Positions 1 to 528 of a stretch of 64,000 nucleotides of DNA are shown in pieces. The DNA is from SAR324 cluster bacterium (GTDB taxonomy: Bacteria; SAR324; NAC60-12). The first letter of the stretch is position 1; every line of letters starts with the position of its first letter. Made by a program: the position numbers and the translations under genes. The stretch lies in assembly GCA_015232315.1 (NCBI GenBank), contig JADFZZ010000002.1:248001-312000 (forward strand). The letters run 5' to 3'. A model generated the notes under the pieces. The model did not search any database. It saw only the letters and a list, made by a program, of their open reading frames with translations, and had not been told where the DNA came from.

Positions 1-175
1 AATTCAACAAGACAAAATGCATGCTATTCAGTGTGTTTTCATGAACTTTGACGTTAATATTTTCGCTCAAATCCTGTCCCAGTTCTTTCAGGATTTCTTT
101 TGGAAAGCTCATCAGCCGTTGCTTATAGGCGTCATCGTTCCATGCTTTTTGTATGATTTCTTCGTACTTTTGCAT
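1..175 (-). CDS. NHLP-type RiPP precursor / leader peptide (partial, runs off left edge)
   Basis: The 58 visible codons start at ATG 175-173 and remain open to the edge, so this is the N-terminal part only. The motifs AWNDDAYKQRLMSFPKE, LKELGQDLSENINVKV and ENTLNSMHFVLLN, in that order, follow the pattern of the NHLP leader family (nitrile hydratase alpha-subunit-like leaders of ribosomal natural products: A-x-D-x-x-F/Y-K-x-x-L, then PKxxLxELG, then V-x-ENT-x-x-x-H-x-VLP). A good ribosome site (GAGGGG, 180-185) lies just upstream of the ATG. If the family call holds, the leader is recognised by modification enzymes and an NHLM-type exporter removes it; the core peptide and partner genes would lie beyond the edge. 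The alternative is a true nitrile hydratase alpha subunit or other NHase-fold protein, which shares this N-terminus and would be about 200 residues. The match is from memory of the family, not a search. Confidence 0.75.
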   Translation of the reverse strand, partial: MQKYEEIIQKAWNDDAYKQRLMSFPKEILKELGQDLSENINVKVHENTLNSMHFVLLN

Positions 176-528
176 ATTTCCCCTCTTAAAAAGGTTGGTG
201 AGGAATCTTCTTCCCAAAAATCTGTTCAGTCAATTAATCAGCTCAACAGACAAAGCTCCTTAATAAACTTTCTCCTAACAAATACTATTTTTATTAAATC
301 GCCAACCCAGTTGTCAATGATAAATCATCCACAAGTTGCCAGAGGTCACGTTTTGTTTTAAATGCACAATTAATTTATATAGTTAAATATTTATTAATTA
401 AAAATAAAAGTGCTAACGGGAATATGTAATATTTTGAATGGTACAAAATGACTCGTCAACGTAATTTCTCTGGAGCGAGTTCTGAGAAATCCTTGATCTT
501 TTTATCGCCCCCCACCAATGATGCGCTA
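176..528. other. Intergenic region, AT-rich, no gene seen
   Basis: This 353-base gap separates the NHLP-type gene from the end of the unknown gene at 529. Positions 360-420 are strongly AT-rich (TTAATTTATATAG, TTTATTAATTAAAAAT). Apart from the candidate promoter at 288-317 and the ribosome site at 180-185, no RNA gene, convincing terminator or coding frame was found. A plus-strand frame across 17-361 was rejected because the minus-strand leader explains that sequence better. Confidence 0.6.
288..317 (-). promoter_or_regulatory. Candidate sigma-70 promoter for the NHLP-type gene
   Basis: On the minus strand a perfect TTGACA (-35) occupies 317-312. It is followed about 17 bases later by an AT-only stretch (AATAAAAATAG region, 296-288) that can act as -10. 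It would give a leader of roughly 100 nt before the ATG at 175. The -10 is weak, so this is a candidate only. Confidence 0.35.

Follow-up and report, generated by a model that had tools for sequence, protein, structure and literature searches.

Tandem NHLP-type leaders on dispersed peptide precursors in a bacterial genome

A precursor gene at the edge of the window

At the left edge of the window, the 64,000-nucleotide stretch analysed here (G000:C2:248001-312000, from a 5.25 Mb assembly of 88 contigs representing a genome that is 95% complete), a minus-strand reading frame of 58 codons is cut off within the gene. An earlier note had taken this frame for an NHLP-type precursor linked to NHLM-type export, belonging to a natural-product cluster that extends to the left. 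What does the complete gene encode, and where are the proteins that would modify and export its product? The frame itself, which we call own1, is real: its ATG occupies window positions 175-173, and the following codons, down to base 2, encode MQKYEEIIQKAWNDDAYKQRLMSFPKEILKELGQDLSENINVKVHENTLNSMHFVLLN. The features in and next to it are:

window 2..175, minus strand: start of own1, the first 58 codons, leader domain 1 (translation, TIGR03793 profile search)
window 180..187, minus strand: Shine-Dalgarno-like AAGAGGGG, 4 bases 5' of the own1 ATG (read directly)
window 312..317, minus strand: TTGACA, a possible -35 element lacking a convincing -10 partner, at chance level (promoter-site count and reading)

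The ribosome site described before was thus found again at 187-180. The upstream TTGACA is also present (317-312) but carries little weight as a promoter, because promoter-like sites in the own1 region were no commoner than in shuffled sequence (2 found, 4.3 expected).

In the source genome, own1 reads leftward as a coding sequence of 199 residues (C2:247576-248175, minus strand), in which two leader domains (residues 1-145) end in VAGG and are followed by a 54-residue core (residues 146-199), KNMNELFCNGASKLFQAGQKFFTGKTGGYLGSLGALANPLMTGGVVFAREASST. Searching the full protein with the NHLP leader model TIGR03793, as had been proposed, gave 103 bits (E 5.5e-30) in two matching stretches, far above chance and above the curated cut-off of 50.9 bits; the stretch C2:247972-248163 by itself scored 59.9 bits in the genome search. 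The reading as an NHLP-type precursor is therefore borne out. Only the first half of the leader had been visible in the window, so that neither the doubling nor the core, with the frame ending at C2:247576, could be seen there. Continuation as a nitrile hydratase α subunit, named beforehand as an outcome that would overturn the reading, can be ruled out: own1 has no CxxCSC metal-binding claw, carries the VAGG leader end and a core instead, and reaches 47.6 bits against an enzyme cut-off of 249.85. A search for tandem DNA repeats at the own1 locus found none.

Seven dispersed precursors and their unlinked machinery

Seven double-leader NHLP precursors, at six places in the source genome, emerged from searches that used the 58 residues and the TIGR03793 model as queries:

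C2:247576-248175, minus strand: own1
C2:246918-247550, minus strand: own2
C2:323666-324286, minus strand: own3
C4:50020-50583, minus strand: own4
C2:159098-159718, plus strand: own5
C35:2466-3080, plus strand: own6
C48:8812-9435, minus strand: own7

Each matches TIGR03793 in two stretches, with scores of 88-106 bits that all exceed 50.9. All seven consist of two leader domains joined by a linker, the motif [ED]LSD.DL..V[AS]GG and a core, with leaders of 142-145 residues and cores of 43-65. The leader-core junction is V[AS]GGK throughout, which places a Lys at core position 1 in every precursor. In addition, every core has a single Cys, which lies at position 7-11 and has Ser or Thr 2-4 residues downstream of it, contains 8-13 Ser/Thr residues in total and is rich in Gly (fraction 0.14-0.26). 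A search of the genome_contigs collection with the precursor alignment yielded no confirmed relative.

The expected cluster was not found. To the left of the window lies only the sister precursor own2, which forms with own1 the sole adjacent pair among the seven, followed by genes that read as ordinary among the open reading frames listed; the neighbours of the other precursors were likewise read by eye as ordinary cellular genes among the frames listed. The stretches examined around the seven precursors showed no recognised modification gene, and the exporter, a GNAT, a LanM and a second ABC transporter all lie on other contigs than own1:

C16:20479-21390, same direction as the next three genes: GNAT of 303 aa with two Acetyltransf_1 stretches
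C16:21387-23135, same direction as the GNAT: TolC-like protein, neighbour in the apparent operon
C16:23150-24406, same direction as the GNAT: NHLM_HlyD (392 bits, cut-off 156)
C16:24434-26692, same direction as the GNAT: NHLM_ABC1 (1094 bits, cut-off 853)
C46:3694-6585, standing alone: NHLM_ABC2 (938 bits, cut-off 709)
C29:53195-56434: LanM, the only one in the source genome (TIGR03897 746 bits, cut-off 304; PF13575 328 bits)

The predicted link to NHLM-type export thus has a counterpart in the genome, as do the peptidase-ABC transporter and the LanM that the earlier note had suggested looking for, on these other contigs. The four genes on C16 apparently form an operon, in which the GNAT stop and the TolC start overlap by 4 bases and the next gaps measure 14 and 27 bases; the tandem GNAT, assigned by family and context, would thereby stand in a selidamide-type setting. 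The LanM carries the motif LCCG, a ProcM-like CCG, which has been described as typical of ProcM and other LanMs of high promiscuity (PMC10027976).

Of the other enzyme types that had been suggested, a cyclodehydratase is missing: a PF02624 search of the source genome at E 0.01 gave no YcaO match, and TOMM/LAP chemistry was rejected on this ground, given 95% completeness. A radical SAM/SPASM protein (C16:26764-27870), convergent with NHLM_ABC1, was not assigned to the pathway; it matched only general SPASM models far below their cut-offs (best 121 bits, cut-off 380) and abuts genes read as polysaccharide genes. Separately, two pentapeptide-like-repeat proteins, one near own5 (C2:159952-161805) and one downstream of the LanM gene (C29:58932-59921), share a similar start, ..C.KCDL..A, possibly by coincidence.

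Across 52 genomes of the phylum, including the source genome, NHLPs and LanMs above cut-off occurred in the same two, the source genome and G021, and NHLM_HlyD in three. Among these three is G027 (C367:2443-3510), in which no NHLP or LanM above cut-off was found. In G021, a single cluster on contig C100 comprises LanM, GNAT, NHLM_HlyD, NHLM_ABC1 and a double-leader NHLP. As the source genome had been chosen by its NHLP, G021 provides the sole independent evidence of co-occurrence. Because LanM and precursors cluster in G021 but are unlinked in the source genome, the substrate assignment rests on this cluster and on the absence of any other recognised LanM substrate: neither Nif11 precursors in the source genome nor other GG-type small open reading frames beside the LanM or NHLM genes were found. 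We put at roughly 0.6 the probability that own1 is one of seven dispersed substrates of a single, unlinked RiPP pathway.

Origin of the doubled leader

The NHLP leader has been described as nitrile hydratase α from which a deletion took 63 residues and with them the metal site (Haft 2010; PMC2887384). Nitrile hydratase α is built of two repeats that resemble each other weakly (hhalign probability 91%, E 1e-6), so that this deletion would be a recombination between internal repeats. The enzyme halves flank the CTLCSC claw, as seen in nitrile hydratase α of L038-L047, L062-L074 and L084. Since the enzyme holds two similar units, a double leader could also be an undeleted enzyme, that is, a whole α subunit that kept both repeats, lost the claw and gained a core, and would then be the missing link between enzyme and NHLP. 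Besides the repeats themselves, this origin is favoured by a colinear match of Pfam NHase_alpha to own1 (residues 6-143 vs 43-175) and by the Burkholderiales double-leader model, which by fold matches nitrile hydratase α best (E 6e-7, 143-152 columns). The predicted structure of that double leader (L124) comprises two three-helix, two-strand domains, for the most part at pLDDT 71-90, followed by a core that is disordered. However, its best matches, to nitrile hydratase α chains, are mostly at rmsd 6-8 Å with a TM of about 0.43, an agreement in domain order only.

Profiles of half domains point in the other direction. Single-NHLP profiles scored best for 25 of 26 leader halves (the exception being the Burk2 N-half), and the C-half of the double leader preferred repeat 1 to repeat 2 in 12 of 13 cases. 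Moreover, when each domain was split, its first half was nearer to repeat 1 in 12/13 and 13/13 double-leader domains and in 46/46 single NHLPs, and its second half was nearer to repeat 2 in 9/13 and 11/13 double-leader domains and in 45/46 single NHLPs. Each leader domain is thus chimeric in the manner of single NHLPs, which indicates that each is an NHLP leader in which the deletion had taken place before, with a tandem duplication giving rise to the pair. A half-domain tree, with 60 columns and many unresolved forks, was not relied on. Judged by these sequence signatures, the doubled leader is best explained by an NHLP leader that was first shortened and later duplicated in tandem; origin from an undeleted nitrile hydratase is strongly disfavoured by the split test and appears very improbable. 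The same test, applied to other sequences, also supports the deletion model of Haft.

Double leaders of this kind are also present in Nostoc sp. C057 and in Selenomonadales and Burkholderiales (5 of 51 NHLPs across the 80 NHLM loci and five plasmid loci examined). Among open-access papers we found no description of tandem NHLP leaders, although one may exist. Tandem copies of the folded NHLP leader are thus found in several bacterial phyla and amount to a natural experiment on the sharing of one substrate by RiPP enzymes. In one of the loci, on a Paenibacillus cellulosilyticus plasmid (L081:2436-3915), five successive NHLP-like open reading frames of 76-86 aa lack a Gly-Gly end or evident core, and four of the five share a similar ENVRK ending.

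Core conservation, the predicted product and known systems

Scattered precursors served by a single CCG-type LanM, with three divergent cores among seven (own1, own2 and own4), could suggest a prochlorosin-like combinatorial library, in which hypervariable cores give many products. Yet the cores of own3, own5, own6 and own7 are near-identical, varying less than the leaders that precede them, the opposite of a diversity-generating set: core identity is 0.76-0.90 against 0.44-0.80 for the leader halves, and core dN is 0.10-0.19 against 0.14-0.45 for the leader. The prochlorosin-type pattern of conserved leader and hypervariable core was thus not found in these four, while the three other cores diverge. 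With dS above 1 in core and leader alike (such high values being rough), synonymous change is near saturation, which makes it unlikely that gene conversion has recently acted on the core. The pattern fits purifying selection on the core of these four paralogues, and we regard a library as improbable.

What, then, is the product? Of the features of class II lanthipeptides, a LanM in the genome and Cys with Ser/Thr in the core are both present. The Lys1 start and the single Cys with a nearby Ser/Thr in all seven precursors suggest a single-ring lanthipeptide; with one Cys per core, there can be one ring at most, and the remaining core looks like a Gly-rich bacteriocin without modifications. In the proposed pathway, LanM would dehydrate core Ser/Thr residues, and the invariant Cys would be joined to the Ser/Thr 2-4 residues downstream in one (methyl)lanthionine ring. 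More tentatively, the GNAT might acylate the side chain of the invariant Lys1, as NpuN does in nostolysamide, so that by analogy the lanthipeptide is perhaps Lys1-acylated. The C39 domain of NHLM_ABC1 would cut after Gly-Gly, and the peptide would leave through HlyD and TolC, two well-supported steps. One plausible use of the doubled leader would be a larger surface on which LanM, GNAT and transporter can dock.

A selidamide-type acceptor Lys near the core start is found in all seven source precursors, but not in G021, whose core starts with Ser, a point against the proposed pathway. GNAT relatives occur in 17 of the 80 NHLM loci, in addition to the G021 cluster. Also against the pathway, GNAT-associated cores in Paenibacillaceae have Lys at position 2: six loci (L094, L095, L103, L113, L115, L129) combine NHLPs with an AGGSK core, a nearby tandem GNAT and an NHLM exporter, with no LanM match in the stretch examined, and are candidates for acyl-only RiPPs.

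Maturation might alternatively consist of leader cleavage only, yielding unmodified, bacteriocin-like peptides for NHLM export while LanM and GNAT serve something else. The cores are indeed long, Gly-rich and endowed with a single Cys, and the double-leader precursors of Selenomonadales (L106) and Burkholderiales (L124) have similarly long, Gly/Ala-rich cores with no LanM or GNAT match in the stretch examined, although such core comparisons between loci depend on an automatic leader-end rule and related sequences are not independent. This reading leaves the invariant Cys and Lys1 unexplained, however, and in the phylum LanM occurs only together with NHLPs, clustered with one in G021, with no Nif11 or other GG precursor found that could occupy it. 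We consider cleavage alone possible but unlikely, and own1 probably gives rise to an exported, chemically modified peptide. A further, rather improbable idea is that each of the two leader domains docks a partner of its own (e.g. one binding LanM and the other GNAT or the exporter) in the making of an ancient exported lipo-lanthipeptide under purifying selection; if so, the product would be a conserved product of the cell and not a variable antibiotic.

The system is dispersed and served by a single CCG-type LanM outside cyanobacteria, with a main core that is conserved, not variable. Genome mining that relies on clusters would miss it, because the precursor surroundings examined contained no recognised modification gene.

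Among known systems, NHLP precursors (TIGR03793; PMC2887384) and proteusin-type leaders share the leader fold, AW.D..FK, the ELSD.DL..VAGG end and the NHLM exporter. In contrast to a typical NHLP, the tandem leader here has 142-145 residues instead of about 87 and the core 43-65 instead of about 27, and the precursors are unlinked to the machinery. WP_179076313.1 of Nostoc sp. C057, annotated as an NHLP RiPP precursor, likewise has two leader domains and AGG, but a core of 14-15 residues and an adjoining TOMM/NHLM cluster. Nitrile hydratase α (TIGR01323/PF02979) shares the two repeats and the colinear match, whereas own1 lacks its CxxCSC site. Prochlorosins and synechococsins (PMC10783134) also combine scattered precursor genes with a single CCG-motif LanM, but have a Nif11 leader and hypervariable cores, where the present system has an NHLP double leader and a core conserved in four of seven precursors. 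Closest in its parts, by analogy, is the nostolysamide/selidamide system (NpuA, NpuM, NpuN; PMC13060382), with a ProcM-clade LanM, a tandem GNAT (NpuN) that acylates Lys1 of NpuA, and a peptidase-ABC exporter; in that study, a search linked GNATs resembling NpuN with clusters of the NHLP and Nif11 kinds. NpuA, however, comes from a compact cluster and combines one Nif11 leader with a core of 25 aa that contains four Cys, as opposed to an NHLP double leader, one Cys, dispersed genes and an acylation that is only putative here. As every protein part belongs to a described family, the system is not a new class but a variant of a known natural-product family, unusual in a leader doubled by NHLP duplication and in a core that is more conserved than the leader in four paralogues.
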